Below, one piece after another: positions 36,896 to 52,838 of a DNA stretch of 64,000 nucleotides. Each line of letters opens with the position of its first letter. Position 1 is the first letter of the stretch. The stretch lies in the NCBI RefSeq assembly GCF_034377285.1, contig NZ_CP139715.1:4386001-4450000 (forward strand). The letters are read 5' to 3'. Below the pieces are notes generated by a model. The model had not been told where the DNA came from, searched no databases, and saw only the letters and a list, made by a program, of their open reading frames with translations. The DNA comes from Thalassobaculum sp. OXR-137 (GTDB lineage Bacteria; Pseudomonadota; Alphaproteobacteria; Thalassobaculales; Thalassobaculaceae). Position numbers and translations under genes: made by a program.

Positions 36896-37028
36896 CCGCG
36901 ATCGGACGGCGGCGGGAGGACCGCCGCCGAGCACGCTTCTGCGTGAAGCAAACGATGTGTTAACGTTTACCCGGCACGGTGGGGGGAGACATTCGCGCAA
37001 TGAGACCGTCAGGCATTGGGGCATCCCG

Positions 37029-38282
37029 ATGACGCCGCAACAATTCGTCATGATCCTGCAGGAGCATGAAGCCTGGCTGACCAAGGGTCGCGGCGGTGCG
37101 CGCGCGAACCTGGCCCGTCAGAACCTGACCGGCTTCTCGCTGGCGGGCGCGCGGCTGCGCGGCGCCAAGATGTCGGGCTGTGACCTGACCCGCGCGATCC
37201 TGCACCGCACCGACCTGTCGGAGGCCGACCTGTTCTGCGCCATCCTGGACGGGGTCGACGCGAAGAGCTGCAATCTGGAGAACGCCGACCTGCGCGGCGC
37301 CAATATCCGCAACGTGAACCTGACCGGGGCGAACCTGCGCGGCGCCGATTTCCGCGGCGGCACGCTCATGTTCGGCAGCGACGACGAGGACGGCGAGCGC
37401 GAAAGCCCGACCAAGAACGAGCGCGGCGCCAACCTGTCCAACTCGGCCATGGCCAATGCCAATCTGGCGGGCGCCAGCCTCGCCGGGGCTAACCTGTCCG
37501 GCGTCAATCTGCGCAACGCCAATCTGGAAGGCGCGGACATGAAGGGGTGCATCCTCAGCGACACCGACTTCAGCGGCGCCAACCTGCAGGACGCCCAGCT
37601 CCAGGGGGCGGTGATCAACAACACCGTTTTCAAGCACGCCAACCTGTCCGGCGCGAATATCGACGGCTGCGACATGGGTTCGGCGAACCTGACCGGCGCC
37701 AACATGGTCCGCAGCGAGGACACCCTGCCCTCCGACATCCGCGACATGCTGAACAATCACTATGTCTGGATCCGCGAGGATGGCCGGCTCGGCGACCGGG
37801 CGGTGCTGGTCGGCACCGATCTCAGCCATATCGACCTGTCCGGCGTGAACCTGTCCGGCGCGGACCTGCACACCTCGATCCTGAGCGGCGCCAACCTCTC
37901 CGAGACACTGCTGGTGATGTCCGATCTCGCCAAGTGCAACCTGGAGGGTGCGGACCTGACCAAGGCGACGCTGGAAGGCGTGAACCTGTCCAATGCCAGT
38001 CTGGTCGGGGCCAATCTGCAGAAGGCGAACATCTCGCCGGTCAACCTGAAGGACAGCAAGGGACGACCGACCGGACGGCTCTGGCCGGCCAACCTGTCCG
38101 GGGCGAAGTTGAACGGCGCCGACCTTCGGGGCGCCGATCTGCGCGGGGCGAATCTGTCCCACTGCGACCTCTCCGGCGCCCAGCTGAAGGGCGCGAATCT
38201 GACCGGTGCGAACCTGACCGATAGCGTGGTCGATCCGGACCAGTTGGATTCCGCGCTGAACACCGCAGCCGCCGCCGTCTGA
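37029..38282 (+). CDS. Pentapeptide-repeat protein, two-module
   Basis: A 417-residue protein composed mostly of A(D/N)LXX pentapeptide repeats, which fold as a right-handed quadrilateral beta-helix. The start at 37029 (MTPQQFVMILQEHEAWL) is set by comparison with the paralogue at 39068; the frame is open upstream. The HxxW cap at H13/W16 with GxxGxRAxL opens the first module, and a similar cap (NNHYVWIREDGRLGDRAVL) near residues 242-260 opens a second, so each half is cap plus repeats. A charged loop (SDDEDGERESPTKNER) interrupts the first module near residue 120. A near-terminal insertion GRPTGRLWPANLSGA is also shared with the paralogue. Function is unknown. Confidence 0.85.
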   Translation: MTPQQFVMILQEHEAWLTKGRGGARANLARQNLTGFSLAGARLRGAKMSGCDLTRAILHRTDLSEADLFCAILDGVDAKSCNLENADLRGANIRNVNLTGANLRGADFRGGTLMFGSDDEDGERESPTKNERGANLSNSAMANANLAGASLAGANLSGVNLRNANLEGADMKGCILSDTDFSGANLQDAQLQGAVINNTVFKHANLSGANIDGCDMGSANLTGANMVRSEDTLPSDIRDMLNNHYVWIREDGRLGDRAVLVGTDLSHIDLSGVNLSGADLHTSILSGANLSETLLVMSDLAKCNLEGADLTKATLEGVNLSNASLVGANLQKANISPVNLKDSKGRPTGRLWPANLSGAKLNGADLRGADLRGANLSHCDLSGAQLKGANLTGANLTDSVVDPDQLDSALNTAAAAV

Positions 38283-38696: not shown

Positions 38697-39071
38697 ATGA
38701 AGACGACAGTGGCCGAGCATAACGCATCCTTTCTAGAAACGATCAGCACCCAACTTCTGGATCTGGTGGCCCGTGTCGAAGACGACGTGGCCCGCTATGC
38801 CGACGCCAAGGTCGGGCCGGCGGGCGGCGGTTTCGTGATCTATTACCTGACCGACGAAAACGGCGAGCCGCTCAAGGACGTCACCGCGGCCGATCTGGGG
38901 ACAAGCCTCTCAGACATCGTCGCGACCAAAGGATTTCAGCAGTTGCAGGACCACTGTGAAATGCGCGACCTGAAGGTGCGCATCGACGAACATTTCTACG
39001 CGACCGATCCGCGCCCGACGAAGATCTACCGCGTGATCGTTGACGGCTGGCAGATCGGGTCGCTGACATGA
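38697..39071 (+). CDS. Unknown 124-residue protein coupled to pentapeptide-repeat gene
   Basis: I do not recognise this family. The 124-residue protein is soluble, with no signal peptide or membrane helix. The first 40 residues are helical and acidic (TISTQLLDLVARVEDDVARY); the remainder is mixed, with VIYYLTDENGEPL and a final strand-rich IYRVIVDGWQIGSLT. No Shine-Dalgarno sequence is obvious. The last 4 bp overlap the start of the next gene as ATGA, so it is translationally coupled to the second pentapeptide-repeat protein, and the two may act together. Confidence 0.75.
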   Translation: MKTTVAEHNASFLETISTQLLDLVARVEDDVARYADAKVGPAGGGFVIYYLTDENGEPLKDVTAADLGTSLSDIVATKGFQQLQDHCEMRDLKVRIDEHFYATDPRPTKIYRVIVDGWQIGSLT

Positions 39072-40351
39072 CCCCGGAACAGATACTGAAGCTGATCGAA
39101 GGCCACGAGCGCTGGCTTCAGCGCAAATCCGGCGGCCAGCGGGCGGACCTGTCCGGCTGCAACCTGTCGGAGTTCAACCTGACCAGCGCGATGCTGCAGT
39201 CGGCCAAGCTCTCCGGCGCCTATATGGCCCGCACCATCCTGGTCGGCGCCGACCTATCCTATGCGGACATGTTCTGCGCCAACCTGGACGGCGCGGATCT
39301 GGCGAAATCGCTGCTGATGCGCGCCGACCTGCGCGGCGCCTTCATGCGCGGCGCCAACCTGGCCGGCGCCAACCTGAAGGAAGCCGATCTGCGCGGCGGC
39401 GCGCTGATCAGCGGCAATCCGGCCGCCCCCGCCACGATCATCCGCGCGAATATCGGCCAGTCCGAACTGGACGAGGCGGAGCTGAACGGCGCCAACCTCT
39501 CCGGGACCGACCTGTCCCATTCCTCCATGGTCGGCGCGACGCTGGAGAAGACGCTGCTGTGCGGCGCCAACCTGTCGGGCGTCAATCTGGAGAACGCCAA
39601 CCTGACGGGCGCCGATCTGTCCGGTGCGAACCTGTCCGACGCCAGGATCGTCGGTGCGAACCTGTCCGGCGCCAATCTGTCCGGCGCGCTGATCCATCGC
39701 ACGATGCTGCGCAATTCCGACCTGCACGGCGCGATCCTGGAGAATGTCGATCTCTCCTCCGCCGATCTGGCCGGCGCCAATCTGGTGAATTCCGACGGCC
39801 GCGGCCTGTCCCGCTCCATGCGCGACATCCTGCGCGACCACGCCGTGTGGATCCGCGAGCAGGGACGCGGCGGCTCGCGGGCGCAGCTCGCCAAGACCGA
39901 TCTTCAGGGCATCGACATTTCCGACGTGAACCTGTCCGGCGCGGATCTGCGCGAGGCGCAGATGGCCGGGTCGACCATGCGGCGGACCAGCCTCGTGATG
40001 TCGGACCTGAGCGGCGCCGATCTGAGCGGCGCCGACCTGCGCGACGCCGAGCTGGCGGGCATCAACCTGTCCGGTGCCGACCTGACCGGGACCCGGGCGG
40101 CCGGCGCGAACTTCTCGGAGGTCGAGCTGAAATCCGCCGACGGCACGCCGACCGGCCGGATGTGGGTGTCGAACCTGTCCGGCGCGGTCTTCGTCGATGC
40201 CGACCTGACCGGTGCGAAGCTGACCGGGGCCAACCTGCGCGGCGCCAATTTCCAGGGCGCCCGGCTGGCCCGCGCGCATCTGCGCGGTGCGGAGCTGGAC
40301 GGTGCGAACATCACCCCGGAACAGATGGCGGAACTCGCCTCCAAGCCGTAG
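39068..40351 (+). CDS. Pentapeptide-repeat protein, two-module paralogue
   Basis: A 427-residue paralogue of the protein encoded at 37029-38282. The N-terminal cap MTPEQILKLIEGHERWLQ (H13, W16) leads into repeats such as NLSGANLSGA; a second cap, RDILRDHAVWIREQGRGG, begins near residue 252 and starts a second run. The C-terminal block before the last repeats again contains a GTPTGRMWVSNLSGA insertion matching the first paralogue. Pentapeptide-repeat proteins include gyrase-protecting DNA mimics and many proteins of unknown role; the neutral, Asn/Asp/Ser-rich faces here do not settle which. The stop is 16 bp from a convergent gene. Confidence 0.85.
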   Translation: MTPEQILKLIEGHERWLQRKSGGQRADLSGCNLSEFNLTSAMLQSAKLSGAYMARTILVGADLSYADMFCANLDGADLAKSLLMRADLRGAFMRGANLAGANLKEADLRGGALISGNPAAPATIIRANIGQSELDEAELNGANLSGTDLSHSSMVGATLEKTLLCGANLSGVNLENANLTGADLSGANLSDARIVGANLSGANLSGALIHRTMLRNSDLHGAILENVDLSSADLAGANLVNSDGRGLSRSMRDILRDHAVWIREQGRGGSRAQLAKTDLQGIDISDVNLSGADLREAQMAGSTMRRTSLVMSDLSGADLSGADLRDAELAGINLSGADLTGTRAAGANFSEVELKSADGTPTGRMWVSNLSGAVFVDADLTGAKLTGANLRGANFQGARLARAHLRGAELDGANITPEQMAELASKP

Positions 40352-40367: not shown

Positions 40368-41519
40368 CTACCAGCCGTTCACCCGCTCCCAGAACGCCAC
40401 CACCGGCTGCTTCGGCCCTTTGTCGAGGCCGTCGACAACCGCATAGCGGTCGTACATCGCCGCCGTCATGCAGACATGGTTCGGCAGCACATGGATCCGG
40501 CTGCCGATCGGCAGCACCGCCGGGTCCGCCCCGACCCCGCCGAGCCGTCCGTGCTCCTGATGTACCGCCTCCACCGTCAGCCCCGGCAGCGGCCGGCCGA
40601 ACGCGTCCAGCAGCAACCCGAAGCCGCAGTCGCGCGGCTGCGCCTGGGTCGAGCGGTCCTTGGACAGGGCGAGCGCGCCGGCATCGATCATCGCCGTACC
40701 CTGCTCGGGCCGCAGGTTGGTGACGCTCGCCATGACCGTCACCGCGATATCCTCCAACCCGCAGCAGCCGACCCCGGATTGGAACAGGTCCATGAACATG
40801 TACACGCCCGGCCGCATCTCGGTGACGCCGTCCATGGAGCGGGCGAACAGCGCGCCCGGCGTTGAGCCGACGCTGACCACCGGACAGGCGTGGCCCGCCT
40901 GGCGCAGCCGTTCGGCCGCCAGGACCGCGCCGGCCCGCTCCTGCTCGGCGATCTCGGCCACCGCCTCCGGGCTGCGGCAGCCGTAGGTGTGGCCGCCATG
41001 GGCCAGGATGCCACGCAGCTCCTGCCCGCCCTCGGTGAGGATCTCGGCGATCTCCAGCAGCTCCGGCGCATGGGCGTCGATTCCCGCCCGATGCTCGCCC
41101 ACATCGACCTCGATCATCACCGGGAAGGTGACGCCCCGGGCCCGGCCCATGGAGACGATCTCGCCGGCGATGACGACATTGTCGGTAATGACGGACAGGT
41201 CGATGCCGCGTGCCAGCAGATCGGCCGCCTGCCCCAGTCGCGACGGCGAGATGCCGACCGCCAGCGTGATGTCGGTGAAGCCGTTCTCGGCGAAGTACTG
41301 CGCCTCGCGCATGGTGGAGACGGTGATCGGGCCGACCTCCCCGCCCAGGGCCAGCCGCGCCACCTCCGCCGACTTCGCCGTCTTGCAATGGGGCCGCAGG
41401 CGCACGCCGAGCGTCTCCGCACGCTTCAGCATCCGGGTCAGGTTACGGTCCATCTTGCTGCGGTCCAACACCAGACAGGGGGTCGGCAGATCGCCGAGGC
41501 TCGGCGCGATATCGTTCAC
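40368..41519 (-). CDS. D-threonine aldolase / D-serine dehydratase-like PLP enzyme
   Basis: A 383-residue fold-type III PLP enzyme of the DSD1/D-threonine aldolase group, which also contains beta-hydroxyaspartate aldolases. The N-terminal LPTPCLVLDRSKMDRNL and the PLP lysine K46 in LRPHCKTAKS are clear. The metal-binding C-terminus HVLPNHVCM contributes H348 and C350. EVDVGEHRAGIDAH and GHTYGC are further family motifs. A GTG start with GAGGAG ahead is used. It is the last gene of the cluster running from 46317 down. Whether it cleaves a beta-hydroxy D-amino acid or dehydrates D-serine cannot be told from sequence. Confidence 0.82.
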   Translation of the reverse strand: MNDIAPSLGDLPTPCLVLDRSKMDRNLTRMLKRAETLGVRLRPHCKTAKSAEVARLALGGEVGPITVSTMREAQYFAENGFTDITLAVGISPSRLGQAADLLARGIDLSVITDNVVIAGEIVSMGRARGVTFPVMIEVDVGEHRAGIDAHAPELLEIAEILTEGGQELRGILAHGGHTYGCRSPEAVAEIAEQERAGAVLAAERLRQAGHACPVVSVGSTPGALFARSMDGVTEMRPGVYMFMDLFQSGVGCCGLEDIAVTVMASVTNLRPEQGTAMIDAGALALSKDRSTQAQPRDCGFGLLLDAFGRPLPGLTVEAVHQEHGRLGGVGADPAVLPIGSRIHVLPNHVCMTAAMYDRYAVVDGLDKGPKQPVVAFWERVNGW

Positions 41520-41542
41520 GGTCGTCTCCTCGCTTGGATCGC

Positions 41543-42490
41543 TCAGGCGACCCGGTGCAGCAGCTCGCGCCCGTCGCGCAGGCGGCTGATGTTCTCGCTC
41601 ACCACCGCCAGGCTGCGCTCCAGCGTGCCCAGGGTGAAGAACGCCACATGCGGCGCCAGCACCACATTGTCCAGCTTGAACAGCGGATTGCTCGCCGGCG
41701 ACGGCTCCTCGGCGAAGACGTCGAGGCCCGCCCCCATGATCCGCCCGGCGGACAGGGCGGCGGCCAGCGCCTCCTCGTCGACCAGCGGACCGCGGGCGGT
41801 GTTCACCAGGATCGCCCCCGGCTTCATCTGCGCGAGGGCCGCGCGGTCGAGCCAGTGGCGGGTCTCCTCCACCAGCGGGATGTGCAGCGAGACGATGTCG
41901 GACTCGGCCAGCAGGGTCGCCTTGTCGACCCATTGCGGGGTCGCCGGGTCGGGCGTGCCGCGCTTGGTAAAGATCACCCTCGCCCCCATCGCCTCCAGCA
42001 CCGGCGTCAGAAGCTGCGGCACCGAGCCGTTGCCGACCAGGCCGACGGTCTTGCCGGCGATCTCGCCCAGCGTGTCCTGCATCGCAGGCGGCCAGCCCCA
42101 GCCGTCGCCGCGCGCGGTGCGGGCATGGAACACCGGCAGGCGGCGCAGGCAGGCAAGCATCAGCAGCAGGGTCATCTCCGACACCGCCTGGCTGTTGGTG
42201 CCCGGCATGTTGCAGACGGCGATGCCGCGCTTCTTCGCCGCTTCCAGGTCGATGGTGTTCACCCCGACGCCGATCTTCTGCACCAGCTTGAGCTTCGGCG
42301 CGGCCGCCATGTGCTCTTCCTTCACCGGCTCCAGGTTGTGCAGCAGCACGTCGGTATCGACCATCTGCTCCAGAAAGCCCTCGTGATCCCGCTCCGAGCA
42401 GATCGCGACCCGCAGCCCCTCCTCCTTCGCCATCCGGTTCAACCGGTCGCGCAGCCAGGGGCCGACGTCGTAGTGATACAGAACCTTCAT
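41543..42490 (-). CDS. D-isomer-specific 2-hydroxyacid dehydrogenase
   Basis: A 315-residue NAD(P)-dependent 2-hydroxyacid dehydrogenase. The cofactor motif is degenerate at its third glycine: VGLVGNGSVPQ. The catalytic residues are present: Arg in LVNTARGPLVDEEAL, Glu in DVFAEEPSP and His in VVLAPHVAFFTLG. Family candidates are hydroxypyruvate/glyoxylate reductase, phosphoglycerate dehydrogenase-like and lactate dehydrogenase-like enzymes; the lack of ACT domains argues against SerA. The ATG at 42490 is 17 bp downstream of the enolase-like gene. The frame extends upstream but lies antiparallel to no homology. Confidence 0.87.
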   Translation of the reverse strand: MKVLYHYDVGPWLRDRLNRMAKEEGLRVAICSERDHEGFLEQMVDTDVLLHNLEPVKEEHMAAAPKLKLVQKIGVGVNTIDLEAAKKRGIAVCNMPGTNSQAVSEMTLLLMLACLRRLPVFHARTARGDGWGWPPAMQDTLGEIAGKTVGLVGNGSVPQLLTPVLEAMGARVIFTKRGTPDPATPQWVDKATLLAESDIVSLHIPLVEETRHWLDRAALAQMKPGAILVNTARGPLVDEEALAAALSAGRIMGAGLDVFAEEPSPASNPLFKLDNVVLAPHVAFFTLGTLERSLAVVSENISRLRDGRELLHRVA

Positions 42491-42507
42491 GCCGCCGCTT
42501 GTCCTTG

Positions 42508-43797
42508 TTACGTGCGTCCCCAGGGATAGGCCGATCGTGCCGGCAAGGCGGTGCCGGTCGGCACCTGTTCGGCCAGCCGCAGCCCCTCGTTCCATTTCGC
42601 CATGCGTTCCGACCGGGTGAAAGACCCGACCTTGAGCTGAGGAATTCCCCAGCCCACCCCCAGATGGACGATGGTCACGTCCTCGGTCTCGCCGGAGCGG
42701 GCCGAGACGATGGCGCCCCAGCCTTTCGCCCGGGCGGTTTCCAGTGCCTCGTGGGTCTCGGTCAGGGTGCCGATCTGGTTCGGCTTGATCAGCGCGGTGT
42801 TGCCGGCGCCCAGGGCGGCGCACTGTGCGATGCGGGGGGCGTTGGTGGTCACCAGATCGTCGCCGACGATCTGCACGCCCGCCGGTGCCGCCTTGGTGAA
42901 ACGGGCAAAGGCCTCCTCGTCGTCCTCGCCGAGCGGATCCTCGATGGAGACGACTGGGTATTTGGCGAGCCAGCCGAGCAGCATCTCGCTCAGTCCGTCG
43001 CTGTCGATCTCCCGGCCATCGCGCGCCAGGGTGTAGCGCCCGCCCTTGCCGAAATCGGAGGCGGCGATGTCCAGGGCGATGGCGACCTCGTCGCCCGGCG
43101 CGTGGCCGGACGCCTCGATGGCCCGCAGCAGACAGTCCAGCGCCTCCTCGTTGCTGTCGAAGGCCGGCCAGAACCCGCCCTCGTCGGCCACGCCCTGCAG
43201 CTTGCCGGCATCGGCCAGGATCTTCCCCGCCGCCCGGTAGACATCGGCCGTCCAGTCCAGCGATGTGGGATAGTCCGGCGCGCCGACGGCGACGACCATG
43301 AAATCCTGCACGTCGACCCGGCGCGCGGCATGGGCGCCACCGCCGAGGATCTGGATCTCCGGAAGCGGCAGCGGGCCGGGCGCGCCCTCGCCCGCCAGGT
43401 GACGCCACAGCGGTAGCCCGGCCGAGGCCGCGGCCGCATGGGCGAGCGCCATGGAGGTGGCGATGATCGCGTTGCCGCCGAGCCGGGACTTGTCGCCGGT
43501 GCCGTCCAGCTCGACCAGGCCCCGGTCGATGCCGGCCTGATCCTCGACCGGGCGGCCCCTCAGGGCCTTGGCGATCTCGCCGTTGACCGAGTCCACCGCA
43601 CCGCGCACGTCCAGGCCGCCGAACGCGGTGCCGCCGTCGCGCCGGTCCACCGCCTCCCCGGAGCCGGTGGAAGCACCGGCCGGGGCGATCGCGCGTCCCA
43701 TGGCGCCCGAGGCCGTGCGGATCTCCACCTCCACGGTCGGACGTCCCCGGCTGTCCCAGACCCGCCGGCCGATCACCGCGTCGATCGTATCGCTCAT
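42508..43797 (-). CDS. Divergent enolase paralogue
   Basis: A 429-residue enolase-fold protein, close in length to true enolase. Family landmarks are DSRGRPTVEVEI, PAGASTGSGEAV, VADEGGFWPAF, SIEDPLG, VGDDLVTTN and KPNQIGTLTE. Metal ligands D243, E286 and D313 and catalytic E206, K338 and K389 are kept, as is H156. Two active-site positions differ: the HRSGETED histidine is alanine (A366) and the QEFM glutamate is aspartate (D165). These changes, and the lack of glycolytic neighbours, suggest a related dehydration on another phosphorylated acid. The gene starts with ATG overlapping the kinase stop (ATGA). A weaker alternative is a simple second phosphopyruvate hydratase. Confidence 0.85.
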   Translation of the reverse strand: MSDTIDAVIGRRVWDSRGRPTVEVEIRTASGAMGRAIAPAGASTGSGEAVDRRDGGTAFGGLDVRGAVDSVNGEIAKALRGRPVEDQAGIDRGLVELDGTGDKSRLGGNAIIATSMALAHAAAASAGLPLWRHLAGEGAPGPLPLPEIQILGGGAHAARRVDVQDFMVVAVGAPDYPTSLDWTADVYRAAGKILADAGKLQGVADEGGFWPAFDSNEEALDCLLRAIEASGHAPGDEVAIALDIAASDFGKGGRYTLARDGREIDSDGLSEMLLGWLAKYPVVSIEDPLGEDDEEAFARFTKAAPAGVQIVGDDLVTTNAPRIAQCAALGAGNTALIKPNQIGTLTETHEALETARAKGWGAIVSARSGETEDVTIVHLGVGWGIPQLKVGSFTRSERMAKWNEGLRLAEQVPTGTALPARSAYPWGRT

Positions 43798-44831
43798 GTC
43801 CCTGCGCCTTCCGCACCCATCTGTTTCGCCCAGTCGTCCCGCAAGCCCGCGAGCGTGGAGGGCGGGCGTTTCAGCCAGCCGATCGCCGTCTCGCGCACCA
43901 GCGCCTTGTCCGTTTCCTCGGTCAGGTATTCCACCGGCGACTTGCCGTCGACCCGCGCCAGGAACAGCCCCGGCAGCAGGCTCGCCACCCTGGCCTCCAA
44001 GCCGGCCGCCTCTTCCCAGTCGACCTTGGCCAGATAGGCCGCGCTCATCCGCTCGAAGCAGCGCAGGAACCCGGTCGCCTTGCCCGGCACCCACAGGCAT
44101 TTCAGCAGCAGGTGGTTGAGGCAGAACGCCAGATCGAAGGCCGGATCTCCCCACCACGCGCATTCGGCGTCGAGAAACAGCGGTCCGGTCGGACCGACCT
44201 GGATGTTCTTCGGGCTCACATCGCCATGCACCAGGCAGCGCTTGGTGGCCGCCGTGCGCCCGACCAGGGCGGTCAGTTCCGCCGCCACCTCGGGCCGGGT
44301 GCGGCCGGCGGCTTCCAGATAGGGCTCCAGCCGGATCGCGTGGAAGATGCTGTCGGTCGGGAAGCGCTCGGCCAGTTCCGGGCGGGCGGCGGTCGCGGCA
44401 TGGATCCGGCCCAGCCGGTCGCCGACCGCATGGGCCACCGCCGGATCGGCGACACCGGCGGCCAGATCCCCCTTCCACAGCCGGTGATTCGACGGATCGA
44501 GCCAGGCCATGGCGAACAGCCCGGCCTGCGGATCGTGGCCGAGGATCTCCGGCACGGCTTCCGGCACCGCCTGCGCCACCGTCTCGAACCAGGCGACCTC
44601 GTATTCGTTGCGGATCACCGGCGCGCGCCAGTCGGCGGCGACCTTCAGCTTGGCCAGCGCCCGCTTCACGCAGAACGGGCCGCGCGCCGCATCGACCCGC
44701 CAGATATCGGAGGCGACGCCGCCCGTCAGCGGCGTCAGTACCGGCTGCTCATCGGCTTCGATCAGACCGAGACCCCGGAGCGAGGCGACGACCTCGGGCG
44801 GTGCATCCCGGTGGGCGTCCGCCCCGCTCAC
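43794..44831 (-). CDS. APH-fold small-molecule kinase
   Basis: A 345-residue aminoglycoside-phosphotransferase-fold kinase. The ATP lobe has CVKRALAKLKV near residue 54. The catalytic loop is CLVHGDVSPKNI (H202, D204, N209) and the metal aspartate is in FLDAECAWWGDPAFD (D221). The sequence style is closer to methylthioribose and homoserine kinases than to resistance enzymes. The GTG start overlaps the GNAT stop by 4 bp and the stop overlaps the enolase-like start, so kinase and enolase-like protein are produced from a coupled message. It probably makes the phosphorylated substrate for the enolase-like enzyme, which is inference. Confidence 0.85.
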   Translation of the reverse strand: MSGADAHRDAPPEVVASLRGLGLIEADEQPVLTPLTGGVASDIWRVDAARGPFCVKRALAKLKVAADWRAPVIRNEYEVAWFETVAQAVPEAVPEILGHDPQAGLFAMAWLDPSNHRLWKGDLAAGVADPAVAHAVGDRLGRIHAATAARPELAERFPTDSIFHAIRLEPYLEAAGRTRPEVAAELTALVGRTAATKRCLVHGDVSPKNIQVGPTGPLFLDAECAWWGDPAFDLAFCLNHLLLKCLWVPGKATGFLRCFERMSAAYLAKVDWEEAAGLEARVASLLPGLFLARVDGKSPVEYLTEETDKALVRETAIGWLKRPPSTLAGLRDDWAKQMGAEGAGT

Positions 44832-45319
44832 GCCGCCAGATCCCGCGCCATGAGCTGGACCTGCTTGCCGCCCGCCTCCTGGATGCCCACCGGCACGAAG
44901 CCGAGCCGCTCGTGGAACCGGAGCGATCCCGGATTGGGCGGATCGAGATTCACCTCGCAGGTCAGGCGCGGCACGCCGAGCCGGCGTCCGGCCGCGGCGA
45001 AATCCTCGTACAGCACCGCGCCCAGGCCGCGGCCCCGCTGGGTTTCGGACACCACGACCCGGTCGACATAAAGGAAACTGTCATAGGTCCGCTCGAACCA
45101 GCGGTAGTTCAGGCTGTCATAGGCGCGACCCGGGCGCAGGGCGATCAGGACGGCCTGCGGATCGCCTACGGGTCCGACGATCCGGAACAGGTCCGCCTGG
45201 GCCGCGAACTCGGCGAAGTCGGCGACGGTCAGCGCGTTCACCGCCGGGACGGCGGCATTGTTCAGGACGACCAGCGCCTCGTAGTCGCCGGGCTCGGCAT
45301 CGCGGATCTCTTGCGTCAT
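44828..45319 (-). CDS. GNAT acetyltransferase
   Basis: A 163-residue GNAT. It begins MTQEIRDAEPGDYEALVVLN, and its CoA loop reads SETQRGRGLGAVLYEDF near residue 95. The EVNLDPPNPGSLRFHERLGF segment is the conserved C-terminal part. Acceptor unknown. Its ATG overlaps the upstream stop as ATGA and its stop overlaps the kinase start. The fused upstream frame is non-homologous. Confidence 0.85.
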   Translation of the reverse strand: MTQEIRDAEPGDYEALVVLNNAAVPAVNALTVADFAEFAAQADLFRIVGPVGDPQAVLIALRPGRAYDSLNYRWFERTYDSFLYVDRVVVSETQRGRGLGAVLYEDFAAAGRRLGVPRLTCEVNLDPPNPGSLRFHERLGFVPVGIQEAGGKQVQLMARDLAA

Positions 45320-46317
45320 TCCGTCCGGCGGCCGCGCGCCGCCCCTCCCCGTCCGCCACGGCGTCTGCGCGCCGGTATGTCTCGTCCCAGCATCACCAGC
45401 ACGCCGGAAATGTCTACCGGTAGAGTGGCCGGATCGAGATGGGCGAGACCGTCCAGGGGCAGAGCGTCCAACCCGGCCCGGCCGTCGCCGGTCGGATCCA
45501 ACGCCTTTGAGAGAAGTGAGAGAAGCGGATCGGCCGTGCCGCCTGCCCCGGACGCGGCCATCAGGACCGCGCCGAGGGTCGGGCCCGGCGGACGCTCCCC
45601 GGAGACCTCGCCCAGTGCGGCGAAGACGCGTCCGGGGCCGAGCCGCCGCTCCAGGGTCGCGGCGACTTCCAGGGCTTCGGCAGGCGCCGCCGCGACCGAC
45701 GCGCTCATCACTCTCTCGGCCGCTAGGGAATTTCCTGCATCCAATGAGAGTGCAGCCACCCATCGGCGCCGATCGTCCGGCTCCAGCTCAGGGCACCATG
45801 CGGCGGCGTCGGGCCGCAGAAGGGGATCGCGAATCAGGAACGGGCAGCCCCGGTCGTCTATCAGAAGACGGGCGCCGCCCAGGGCCGCCACGCCCGAGAG
45901 ATCGGTCGCCACCGCCATACAGGGCGCCGTCCCGAGGGGGTCGAGAGCGGCAGGCTCCATAGCCAGATCCGCCAACGGCCGGCGCTGTCCGGCCATGCGG
46001 GCCGTCAGGGTCGCAAGCTCCACCGCCGCGTCCCCGCCCAGACCGACGACGGCGTCGCATTGATCGAAATGATAGGCGCCCACGGCCTCCGCGACCGCGC
46101 CCACAGACGCCCCGCCCGGATGCGCGAGGGGAAAGACCGCCAACCCGGCGGCTTCGAAAAGCGGGATCAACGGCTCGGGCCGACCGGCCCCATCGTGGAC
46201 GAGAAGAAGACGTCGAAGGCTGCGCGGCACGGCCCAGGCACGGACCGCGGCGTCGGCCTGGAGTCCGGTGCGAAGGGCGACCACTCCCCCCCAGACGATG
46301 CCCGCCTCGACTGTCAT
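45316..46317 (-). CDS. Degenerate iron-alcohol-dehydrogenase-like protein
   Basis: A 333-residue protein with the outline of an iron-containing alcohol dehydrogenase. CDAVVGLGGDAAVELA (from residue 87) aligns with the family's DAVVALGGGSxxDxAK. APCMAVATDLSGVAALGGAR followed by RDPLLRPDAAAWCPEL matches the PTTAGTGSE...DPLLLPDVAIxDPEL block. The GTGSE nucleotide/metal stretch is lost, and the usual metal ligands (D in ATGMDALTHAIEAY and three His) are not found. About 20 C-terminal residues are Arg/Gly-rich. It may be a non-catalytic or repurposed member. It is the first gene of the coupled cluster. Confidence 0.6.
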   Translation of the reverse strand: MTVEAGIVWGGVVALRTGLQADAAVRAWAVPRSLRRLLLVHDGAGRPEPLIPLFEAAGLAVFPLAHPGGASVGAVAEAVGAYHFDQCDAVVGLGGDAAVELATLTARMAGQRRPLADLAMEPAALDPLGTAPCMAVATDLSGVAALGGARLLIDDRGCPFLIRDPLLRPDAAAWCPELEPDDRRRWVAALSLDAGNSLAAERVMSASVAAAPAEALEVAATLERRLGPGRVFAALGEVSGERPPGPTLGAVLMAASGAGGTADPLLSLLSKALDPTGDGRAGLDALPLDGLAHLDPATLPVDISGVLVMLGRDIPARRRRGGRGGAARGRRTE

Positions 46318-50423: not shown

Positions 50424-51605
50424 CTAAGACGCCTCGAGGATCGACCGGGCCAGGTCCAGCAGTTCCGCGTCGTCCGGACGGATCGCGTTGTTGTCGATCA
50501 TCGGCCGGTTCTCCGGCGCCAGCGCCACCGTCACCAGGCGCGGCGCGTCCTTGCCGTCCAGCCCCATATCCGCCAGCGAGACCGGCAGGCCGACCGCCCG
50601 CAGCAGGGCTTCGAACCGGTCGGCGCCCGCCGCCGCATGCTCGGCCTCGTCGCCGGTGCGCCGCGGATCGACGCCCAGAGCCGTCGCGATCGGCGCGTAG
50701 AGATCCGGCCGCCGTGTCGCCGACCAGGGCAGCGTGACCCGCATGGCCAGCGCCACGGCCCGGCCGTGATGCACATGGGCGAGCGTGCCGAGCGCATGTC
50801 CGAAGGCATGGGCGAGGCCGGTGCCGCAGGCGTCGATCGCCACCCCGGCCAGGGCGGAGCCGAGCGCCATGCGGCCGCGCGCCTCCACATCCCCCGGCGT
50901 GGTCACCGCCCGCTCCAGGTTCTGCGCCACCAAGGCGACCGCCTGCAGCGCCATGCCGGCCACCACGGGGGTCGAGCGCACATGGGTATAGGCCTCCACC
51001 GCATGGACCAGGGCGTCGAGCCCGGTCGCCGCGGTCAGCGGCCCCGGCAGGCCCAGGGTCATGGAGGGGTCGAGGATGGAGAGATCGGCCTTCAGCGTGC
51101 TGCCCCAGGCCCAGACCTTGCGCCCGCCGTCGAGCCCGTAGACCGAGGTGCGGGTCATCTCCGCCCCGGTGCCCGAGGTGGTCGGAATCAGGATCTTGCG
51201 GATCGCGCGGGCGGGCAGCGGGTTGGCCATGACGGCATAGGACTCCGCCGGCGCATCGGCCACCGCCACGGAGGCGGCCAGCTTGGCCACGTCCAGGGCC
51301 GAGCCGCCACCGATGCCCAGGATCAGATTCGCCCGGTGGGACCGGGCCCGGCGCGCGGCGGCGTCGATCGACTCGGCCGACGGGTCGCTGGCGACCTCGT
51401 CGAACAGGTCCACCGCCATCCCGGCCGACGCCAGCCGCCGGGCGGCGGCCTCGGGAATGCCGGTGGCGACCACGCCCGGATCGGTGACGATCAGCACCCG
51501 GGCGGCCGGCCCGCACAGGGCCGACACGTCTTCCGGCAGGGCATCGACCCGGTCGAGCCCGTAGCTCATCGACGGGCTGGGCTCATGGGTGAATGCGGAC
51601 AGCAT
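50424..51605 (-). CDS. Iron-containing alcohol dehydrogenase
   Basis: A 393-residue iron-ADH. Signature segments are LGIGGGSALDVAKLAA near residue 100, LIPTTSGTGAEMTRTSV near 142 and the metal-binding helix TGLDALVHAVEAY near 199. Downstream HAFGHALGTLAHVHHG provides the three histidines of the metal site. Compared with the degenerate protein at 45316 this one appears fully active. It could reduce an aldehyde or maleylacetate-type substrate. It is divergent from an MR/MLE-family gene across 126 bp, so a shared sugar-acid or aromatic route is plausible. Confidence 0.9.
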   Translation of the reverse strand: MLSAFTHEPSPSMSYGLDRVDALPEDVSALCGPAARVLIVTDPGVVATGIPEAAARRLASAGMAVDLFDEVASDPSAESIDAAARRARSHRANLILGIGGGSALDVAKLAASVAVADAPAESYAVMANPLPARAIRKILIPTTSGTGAEMTRTSVYGLDGGRKVWAWGSTLKADLSILDPSMTLGLPGPLTAATGLDALVHAVEAYTHVRSTPVVAGMALQAVALVAQNLERAVTTPGDVEARGRMALGSALAGVAIDACGTGLAHAFGHALGTLAHVHHGRAVALAMRVTLPWSATRRPDLYAPIATALGVDPRRTGDEAEHAAAGADRFEALLRAVGLPVSLADMGLDGKDAPRLVTVALAPENRPMIDNNAIRPDDAELLDLARSILEAS

Positions 51606-51731
51606 GGACGTCTCCGTCTCGGTTACGAGGCTCAGGATTTCAGGTTTGCGTTTCAGTTTCGTGTCCGAAAGCGCCACCGGGGGTCGCATTCGCCGTTGAC
51701 GGGTACAACGCAAAAGTCCCCACTGCGCTCC

Positions 51732-52838
51732 ATGAAAATCGACCGTATCGACATCACCCACCACCGCCTGCCGCTCGATCCGCCGTTCCGGGCGAGCTGG
51801 GACACCCGTCCGCGCACCGAGTTCGACGCCACGATCGTCCGCGTCGTCACCGACGAGGGCGCGGTCGGCATCGGCTCGGGCGACACCATGCTCGGCTTCG
51901 AGCGGCACGCCGAGCTGTTCGTCGGCCAGGAACCGCTGGATCTCGACCGGCACAACCGGGTGCTGGACAACCTCGCCTTCCACTACAGCCGCTACTGGCC
52001 CCTCGACCTGGCCCTGTGGGACCTGGCCGGTAAGATCCTCGGCCAGCCGGTCTGGCGGCTGGCGGGCGGCCGATCGGACCGCACCCGGCTCTACGCCTCC
52101 TCGGGCACCCTGCGCGGGCCGCAGGAGATGGCCGAGGCCGCCCTGTCCTTCCTGGAGGCGGGCTTCCCGGCGATGAAGATCCGCTTCCACCGCGGCGACT
52201 GGCGCGACGACATCCGCGCCCTGGAGGCGGTGCGCGCCGCCGTCGGCGACCGGCTGACCCTGATGGTCGACTGCAACCAGGGTTGGCGGATGCCCTGGGA
52301 CACCGAGCGGCCCTGGTCCTTGAAGGACGCGCTGGCCGTCGCCCGCGAGCTGGAGAAGCTGGGCATCTACTGGATGGAGGAGCCGCTGCACCGGGCCGAC
52401 TATGCCGGCATGGCGGCCCTGCGGAACGCCGTGGATATCCGCATCGCCGGCGGCGAGATGAACCGCGAGGTGTTCGAGTTCGACACGATCATCGAGCGCC
52501 GCTGCCTGGACGTGCTGCAGCCGGACGCGGCACTGACCGGCGGCATCGGCGGGCTGAAGCGGATCGCCGAGGCCGCCGTCGCCGCCAACCTGATCTTCAC
52601 CCCGCATACCTGGTCGAACGGGCTCGGCGTCGCGGCCAACGCCCATCTGGCCTGCGGCGCCGGCAACCCGCCCTTCCTGGAATTCCCCTACGACCCGCCC
52701 GAATGGTCGGCCGAGCGGCGCGATTACATGCTGAGCGAGACCCTGAGCTTCGAGGACGGCTGGATGATCCTGGGCGAGGCACCCGGGCTCGGCGTGGCGC
52801 TGGACGAGGACCGCCTGGCCGCGACCCGCATCGGCTGA
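51732..52838 (+). CDS. Mandelate racemase / muconate lactonizing-family enzyme
   Basis: A 368-residue enolase-superfamily protein of the MR/MLE group. The catalytic Lys is in AMKIRFHRG (K149). Metal ligands are D180 (VDCNQGW), E216 (WMEEPLH) and E242 (GGEMN). The second acid/base pair is D265 (LQPD) and H292 (TPHTW). These define a dehydratase- or racemase-like member; mandelate-like or sugar-acid dehydratases fit best. The ATG at 51732 has no strong ribosome-binding site. It is divergent from the iron-ADH gene. Confidence 0.9.
   Translation: MKIDRIDITHHRLPLDPPFRASWDTRPRTEFDATIVRVVTDEGAVGIGSGDTMLGFERHAELFVGQEPLDLDRHNRVLDNLAFHYSRYWPLDLALWDLAGKILGQPVWRLAGGRSDRTRLYASSGTLRGPQEMAEAALSFLEAGFPAMKIRFHRGDWRDDIRALEAVRAAVGDRLTLMVDCNQGWRMPWDTERPWSLKDALAVARELEKLGIYWMEEPLHRADYAGMAALRNAVDIRIAGGEMNREVFEFDTIIERRCLDVLQPDAALTGGIGGLKRIAEAAVAANLIFTPHTWSNGLGVAANAHLACGAGNPPFLEFPYDPPEWSAERRDYMLSETLSFEDGWMILGEAPGLGVALDEDRLAATRIG

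Follow-up and report, generated by a model that had tools for sequence, protein, structure and literature searches.

The window analysed here, a 64,000-nucleotide stretch of the Thalassobaculum sp. OXR-137 genome (contig NZ_CP139715.1, positions 4,386,001 to 4,450,000 of the forward strand; coordinates below count from its first letter), encodes on its minus strand a small-molecule kinase (KIN; 43794–44831) and, overlapping it by 4 base pairs (bp), a divergent enolase paralogue (ENO; 42508–43797). Both belong to a coupled set of six genes that a preliminary description had put forward as a single pathway. We find that the interesting unit is these two genes, smaller than the operon and much wider in distribution than the strain, and we rule out the six-gene pathway because the other genes do not travel with KIN and ENO as a set. 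Our favoured reading, to which we give somewhat better than even credence, is that the two genes form a module that converts glycerate to 2-phosphoglycerate and then to phosphoenolpyruvate (PEP), with KIN as the proposed glycerate 2-kinase and ENO as the proposed PEP maker.

The order of the two genes is kept far outside the strain, whereas the six-gene set is confined to Thalassobaculum-like loci. Relatives of KIN are encoded by 173 stretches, of which 80 were kept for locus comparison; when these were searched by tblastn with the six window proteins, all six genes occurred together in only 5 of the 80 (L016–L020, from Thalassobaculum and relatives), some of the 80 being short contigs that are too short to show the set. 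Loci L017 and L019 carry an extra reading frame inside it. KIN is adjacent to ENO in 72 of the same 80 loci, has ENO elsewhere in 4 and stands alone in 4, all four on shorter stretches. Wider context counts were made on 133 loci, 125 of them with ENO (tblastn at 1e-12 and at least 35% of query length, with no length rule for PEP carboxylase, PPC). Among the 125, 107 have KIN directly upstream of ENO on the same strand and 12 have it at another position in the locus; in 6 it was not found. The stop and start codons of the two genes overlap by 4 bp in 94 of the 107 adjacent cases (ATGA in 77, GTGA in 12 and TTGA in 5), which places the layout of the core beyond chance and suggests that KIN and ENO work together, as had been supposed. 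Genes in related loci were called with our own codon-bias script, which missed some; KIN was uncalled in four loci in which tblastn finds it.

Most of the 133 loci were chosen by the kinase or hold it, so a fairer figure for the pair comes from the 40 places found through a signature pattern of the enolase (all distinct places except the window’s own; one, in genome G057, was also kinase-found). KIN is adjacent to ENO in 27 of these, elsewhere in 4 and absent from 6; one place is a contig end with KIN only, and two are decayed chimeras. In a phylum-wide sample of 398 genomes, 10 had the pattern; the corresponding figures were 16 of 248 for family f23 and 19 of 199 for family f30, and five genomes were shared between the samples. 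Hosts of the pair include Acetobacteraceae, Inquilinus, Burkholderiales and a Planctomycetia bin. Relatives of ENO were also recovered, at E 1e-90, in 21 plasmid records from Rhizobium, Paracoccus, Roseibium, Cupriavidus, Azospirillum and others, 8 of which were examined; these relatives were recognised by overall similarity, and three, at 44–46% identity, may be ordinary enolases. Of the 12 KIN-bearing genomes, 11 have two enolases, and the remaining one, G039, has a lone kinase and no second enolase; the 10 KIN-less genomes tested have one each.

Two related genomes carry a 157-amino-acid in-frame chimera (L140, 8562–9035; L149, 8746–9219), in which the first part of KIN is fused to the C-terminal part of ENO inside an otherwise intact-looking sugar cluster; this looks like a decayed module. 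Locus L054, labelled Mycobacterium sp. KBS0706, has the same cluster as the Inquilinus records, and that genome is probably mislabelled. No description of the gene pair was recognised in the titles and abstract openings of the open-licence PubMed Central literature, which is not proof of absence.

ENO (429 amino acids; Pfam Enolase_N and Enolase_C at 1e-44 and 2e-75) scores above the enolase family cut-off (TIGR01060, 433.5 bits versus 300) and is modelled with an ordinary enolase fold (mean pLDDT 82.7). The host genome has a canonical enolase elsewhere, whose gene matches that of ENO at 66% of bases across an alignment of about 1.1 kb. In yeast numbering (comparison with solved enolases shows the same changes clearly), Glu168 and His373 are present in all 22 canonical enolases compared, whereas Asp168 and Ala373 are present in none of these and in all 83 rows from kinase loci. 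Those rows hold the window protein twice and other repeats, and amount to 77 distinct proteins or 74 clusters at 98% identity. By alignment, the two changes in the window are ENO codon 165, Asp (43303–43305), and codon 366, Ala (42700–42702), the copy here matching the pattern SARSGETED. Both changes recur in 41 of 41 rows from later loci, of which 37 were picked by the pattern, which fixes Ala373 but not Asp168, and 4 repeat proteins of the 83; taken together, the 124 rows collapse to 111 clusters at 98% identity, every one of them Asp/Ala. The preliminary description was thus right to call the enolase divergent.

Between the 83 kinase-locus rows and the 22 canonical enolases, 23 columns are at least 95% fixed yet different, and two of these are the catalytic-site positions 168 and 373. 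By contrast, Lys345, Lys396, Glu211, His159, Asp246, Glu295, Asp320, Arg374, Ser375 and Ser39 are the same in 83 of 83 rows. We take Lys345 to be the base lysine, Lys396 the second lysine and Glu211 the general acid, and the remainder presumably supply metal ligands and phosphate contacts. These roles are in part supported by a published study (PMC10619443). In a maximum-likelihood tree of 62 rows, a single branch separates all 39 divergent rows from the 23 canonical ones, the yeast enolase among them (SH-aLRT 99); the tree was made by a quick method without bootstrap, and yeast and L186 were flagged for long branch and composition. Judged by sequence, divergent ENO is a distinct enolase clade and not an ordinary copy, and the window protein, which differs from canonical enolases at positions 168 and 373, does not read as an ordinary phosphopyruvate hydratase. 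Within the Asp168/Ala373 proteins there is a second subclade (L195, L196, L198–L200 and L211) with Asn152, Ser155 and Ser or Ala at 215, a position that is Trp in most members and whose side chain is a candidate for filling the room left by His373; in L195, L196 and L199 its ENO adjoins VOC genes and genes that by eye are coenzyme A-transferase-like.

KIN (345 amino acids, GTG start; Pfam APH at 1.2e-15) has the APH/methylthioribose-kinase fold. Its AlphaFold model (mean pLDDT 91.4) is closest, among crystal structures, to methylthioribose kinase (Z 34–35; 2olc_B at Z 35.2 over 316 residues with a root-mean-square deviation of 2.4), and an integrative model scores 35.9; further matches include 4-hydroxytryptamine kinase at Z 30 (30.3 and less for the rest) and LxmK at 25. 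K56, H202-G-D204, S206-P-K-N209 and D221-A-E223 are at least 97% conserved in 88 KIN rows. A Pfam scan of the window protein at E 0.01 returned APH and Fructosamin_kin alone and no match to any of the three known glycerate-kinase families, and the protein falls well below the 5-methylthioribose kinase family cut-off (TIGR01767, 46.5 versus 275). A glyoxalase-superfamily protein of about 190–210 amino acids recurs near KIN or ENO (L137, L144, L195, L196, L199, L203 and L204, the L204 copy having been family-scanned); one of these cases is beside the lone kinase of G039.

From the coupling, the conservation, the altered residues, the predicted folds and the gene contexts we infer the reactions, substrates and stereochemistry that follow. 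The APH/methylthioribose-kinase-fold protein would place a phosphate on the 2-hydroxyl of glycerate, and the translationally coupled divergent enolase would dehydrate the resulting 2-phosphoglycerate to PEP. Two groups of neighbours are the basis of this reading, namely genes predicted to make glycerate and a few that consume PEP; the unchanged phosphate- and carboxylate-binding residues, Lys345 and metal ligands count for an enolase that forms PEP. The glycerate source would differ by lineage. In the window it may be a D-2-hydroxyacid dehydrogenase (HADH) acting as hydroxypyruvate reductase, and HADH-like genes occur in 69 of the 125 ENO loci (61 at 44% identity or more and eight at 33–36%). 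Elsewhere the role may fall to a PanE-like reductase (9 of the 125) or to a tartronate-semialdehyde-reductase-like enzyme (2 of the 125, one at 28%). Galactarate-dehydratase-like genes are also found in 2 of the 125 loci, and L192 has TRAP transporter genes, a galactarate-dehydratase-like gene and a tartronate-semialdehyde-reductase-like gene ahead of the KIN/ENO pair.

Another candidate source is a 2,4-diketo-acid hydrolase, which would free glycerate from a hexose acid. LRA6-like hydrolases are present in 12 of the 125 loci (one at 37%), IlvD-type dehydratases in 10 (one at 29%), LacI regulators in 15 and HpcH/HpaI aldolases in 6. The closest solved relative of the L142 hydrolase is L-2,4-diketo-3-deoxyrhamnonate hydrolase (1e-80), and that of the L193 IlvD protein is a galactonate dehydratase. 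A dehydrogenase and hydrolase of this kind yield pyruvate and a shorter acid (PMC6336799); by analogy, the clusters here suggest a hexose and glycerate as the shorter acid. Neighbour family scores lie under curated cut-offs (372.5 of 500 for the hydrolase, 176 of 341 for the L192 reductase and 344 of 731 for the L192 dehydratase), so the names are approximate. At the other end of the proposed route, PEP carboxylase is found in 3 of the 125 loci, L139 being among them. In Rhizobium sp. CIAT894 and R. indicum (L213 and L219), KIN is followed by a 2-hydroxyacid dehydrogenase annotated as a ‘C-terminal binding protein’ and then by PEP carboxylase, with ENO about 4 kb off on the opposite strand; in these rhizobia, PEP would apparently be drawn off by the carboxylase. 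The VOC, cobalamin-independent-synthase-like and hydrolase neighbours in family f30 were followed as a lead, and nothing was gained.

The preliminary description had suggested that a D-hydroxy amino acid or a hydroxy acid is converted to a phosphorylated acid and then to an enol phosphate. Its version through D-glycerate and 2-phosphoglycerate fits the genomic contexts best, whereas the conversion of a hydroxy amino acid is unsupported. Within the glycerate-to-PEP reading we favour D-glycerate over L-glycerate, tentatively and at a level short of probable. Two points count against the L form: the usual products of the HADH and PanE families are D-hydroxy acids, and the glycerate expected from galactonate-type sugar genes is also the D form.

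Several observations weigh against a route from glycerate to PEP or leave its form unsettled. Thirty-four of the 125 ENO loci lack every glycerate-forming partner searched for, although several of these are short contigs. A DUF1537 kinase is present in 11 of the 125 and PdxA in 9, often directly after HADH and with D-threonate kinase and PdxA as best NCBIfam matches; they point to four-carbon acids and fall outside the favoured reading. Searches of solved structures with an aldonate-dehydratase-like protein, the hydrolase, an IlvD protein, the 4-dehydrogenase and the aldose dehydrogenase, and family scans besides, were not decisive on the sugar of the hydrolase clusters and, hence, on the enantiomer of glycerate. 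The window genome, 19 of 24 genomes tested and 13 of 17 module genomes also carry a glycerate 2-kinase of the MOFRL family (no match in G042, G060, G408 and G317, with other kinase classes not sought), so that with a canonical enolase already in the host a D-glycerate route would be redundant there. The second ENO subclade is mostly kinase-less, KIN being found in the locus only for L211. Last, the E163A variant of Mycobacterium tuberculosis enolase, changed at the equivalent of Glu168, is reported as non-functional (PMC10619443); a canonical enolase cannot do without this residue, and its replacement in ENO speaks for a different substrate or function. The MOFRL redundancy, the DUF1537 and PdxA neighbours and the kinase-less subclade make room for three other accounts.

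The first of these stays inside the glycerate-to-PEP reading and changes the enantiomer. KIN would be a 2-kinase for L-glycerate, its fold making it the fourth class, and ENO a stereo-inverted enolase that converts L-2-phosphoglycerate to PEP. The host’s MOFRL kinase and canonical enolase should not handle L-glycerate or L-2-phosphoglycerate, so this version would explain why the genes travel together, why the canonical enolase is retained and why the substrate site is changed in every member read. Against the family preferences and galactonate-type genes described above, we hold it to be unlikely, at about one chance in several.

A four-carbon or larger 2,3-dihydroxy acid (erythronate, threonate or tartrate) would be phosphorylated at the 2-position by the kinase and dehydrated to a substituted PEP by an enolase with a roomier C3 side, a scheme near the more general proposal of the preliminary description. 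Both fixed changes are at residues that adjoin the substrate, and we take His373 to lie near its C3. Glu163 of the M. tuberculosis enolase, the equivalent of Glu168, is reported to contact the carboxylate and is linked, together with Glu204, to water chemistry at the terminal carbon (PMC10619443). Placement of DUF1537 and PdxA genes right behind HADH would also suit such a substrate. However, the rhizobial PEP carboxylase and the tartronate-semialdehyde-reductase-like gene of L192 indicate a three-carbon acid, most loci lack DUF1537 and PdxA, and a four-carbon acid from the hydrolase clusters would require a heptose. We consider this account rather unlikely, somewhat more so than L-glycerate.

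The third account is a refinement that we count inside the glycerate-to-PEP reading. ENO would be specialised for D-2-phosphoglycerate, with its pocket altered against an inhibitor that arises in the pathway. One candidate inhibitor is tartronate semialdehyde phosphate, which binds enolase tightly; the changed residues are at the substrate, and hydroxypyruvate or tartronate semialdehyde would be substrates of several partner enzymes. Hydrolase-type clusters, however, should yield no such semialdehyde, and the term tartronate semialdehyde phosphate was not found in a search of the open-licence literature. We regard this escape from inhibition as improbable.

More improbable still is that ENO has given up dehydration and instead epimerises or otherwise isomerises a phosphorylated acid, or that its role is not catalytic. 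No row read retains Glu168 or His373, which speaks for this account, but Lys345, Lys396 and Glu211 are kept, together with the metal ligands and Ser39, as enolase chemistry expects. We give least credence of all to an ENO that forms PEP by expelling something else than hydroxyl, such as sulfite from 2-phospho-3-sulfolactate. For it speak the altered residues at the substrate, PEP as the apparent product and one aldose-dehydrogenase-like neighbour that resembles sulfoquinovose 1-dehydrogenase (9e-62). Against it, two other solved proteins match that neighbour better, no sulfite-handling gene was noticed by eye in the neighbourhoods listed (no targeted search was made) and galactarate-type contexts would make plain glycerate.

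Around the proposed glycerate-to-PEP core, the six-gene minus-strand layout had been described correctly. When open reading frames are read from stop to stop with all starts, 4-bp overlaps are found at the three junctions (45319/45316, 44831/44828 and 43797/43794), with gaps of 17 bp from the enolase-like gene to the 2-hydroxyacid dehydrogenase and of 23 bp from the dehydrogenase to a pyridoxal phosphate (PLP) enzyme. The unit closes at this sixth gene, since a convergent gene ends at 40351, 16 bp beyond it; upstream, the next plausible minus-strand gene, by eye an XRE-like regulator, lies 416 bp from the first gene of the unit. On the plus strand of the window, convergent with the operon, are two genes whose products look pentapeptide-repeat-like by eye (36957–38282 and 39068–40351) and which flank a 124-amino-acid gene; L016 and L018 show this arrangement after their PLP gene.

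HADH (41543–42490, minus strand; 315 amino acids; Pfam 2-Hacid_dh_C at 4e-51) is D-isomer-specific by family. Its closest solved relatives are phosphoglycerate and glycerate dehydrogenases, and R233, E262 and H281, which we take to be the Arg-Glu-His catalytic triad of the D-2-hydroxyacid family, are at least 97% conserved in 48 rows. By sequence it is a member of this family, in which many 2-keto acids are taken. The PLP enzyme (40368–41519, minus strand; 383 amino acids, GTG start; fold type III; Pfam Ala_racemase_N and D-ser_dehydrat) had been labelled D-threonine-aldolase-like. We replace that label with a dehydratase of the D-threo-3-hydroxyaspartate/D-serine type, because the closest solved proteins are D-threo-3-hydroxyaspartate dehydratase (3wqc, 7e-97) and D-serine dehydratase (3anu, 2e-59), and D-threonine aldolase follows at 4e-28. 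The product of D-threo-3-hydroxyaspartate dehydratase is oxaloacetate, one step from PEP, and the enzyme in the window may feed the same node with this or a different keto acid.

The first two genes of the operon look like lineage-specific additions, being present only in Thalassobaculum-like loci among 92 (L004–L095). One encodes a GNAT acetyltransferase (44828–45319, minus strand; 163 amino acids; Pfam Acetyltransf_1 at 6e-9). The other (45316–46317, minus strand; 333 amino acids) had been called an iron-containing alcohol dehydrogenase (Fe-ADH)-like gene. Its product is degenerate, matching Pfam Fe-ADH at 1.5e-5 with 25.1 bits versus a cut-off of 31.3, and no HxxxH, which we take to be the metal motif of the family, was found in the window protein. 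Among 11 such rows (7 distinct), HxxxH occurs only in L006/L017, a single N-terminally cut protein, at residue 2 and off the metal-site region. A working iron oxidoreductase is thus ruled out, given the missing metal motif. The protein has an Arg/Gly-rich C-terminal tail, RRRRGGRGGAARGRR, which its close relatives retain and which is an uncommon feature in a dehydrogenase. Within about 50424–52838 of the window there is also, on the minus strand, a more typical Fe-ADH that does contain an HxxxH stretch. It is divergent to a plus-strand mandelate-racemase-type protein (both by eye), the latter being another enolase-superfamily gene near the operon.

Enolase is among the most conserved enzymes, and a widespread clade in which all members read have two active-site residues replaced, and in which most are coupled to a kinase of their own, is a natural experiment on those residues. 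If our reading is correct, the module would add a fourth type of glycerate kinase and a new entry into PEP, and would correct the annotation of proteins labelled ‘phosphopyruvate hydratase’ and ‘aminoglycoside phosphotransferase’.

Compared with known systems, ENO shares with enolase proper (phosphopyruvate hydratase, TIGR01060) the full-length two-domain fold, the family score, Lys345, Lys396, Glu211, the metal ligands, Ser39, Arg374 and Ser375; it differs in Glu168 to Asp, His373 to Ala and 21 further columns, in its separate side of the tree, in its usual coupling to a kinase gene and in being the second enolase of its genome. KIN has its closest solved fold in 5-methylthioribose kinase (MtnK), other folds reaching a Z of 30.3 or less, and shares with it a DxE in place of DFG, which we take to be an MtnK trait; it differs in having only 16–19% identity in fold alignments and a low NCBIfam score. 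Three classes of glycerate kinase are described (PMC2063504). KIN shares with class II (MOFRL) the proposed reaction from glycerate to 2-phosphoglycerate, but is of another fold and family than classes I, II and III.

The three-carbon segment of the serine cycle consists of hydroxypyruvate reductase, glycerate 2-kinase, enolase and PEP carboxylase, and the rhizobial clusters have one gene for each of these four steps. They differ in that their KIN and ENO are from other families or subfamilies, in that ENO lies about 4 kb off on the other strand, and in that no further serine-cycle gene is annotated in the stretches of L213 and L219. The hydrolase clusters, in turn, resemble the Route III non-phosphorylative sugar pathway in grouping an aldonate dehydratase, a 4-dehydrogenase and a diketo-acid hydrolase. 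Route III has been described for pentoses and 6-deoxyhexoses, with glycolate or lactate as end products (PMC6336799), whereas here a kinase and an enolase are added, which suggests a hexose as the sugar and glycerate as the acid that would pass to PEP.

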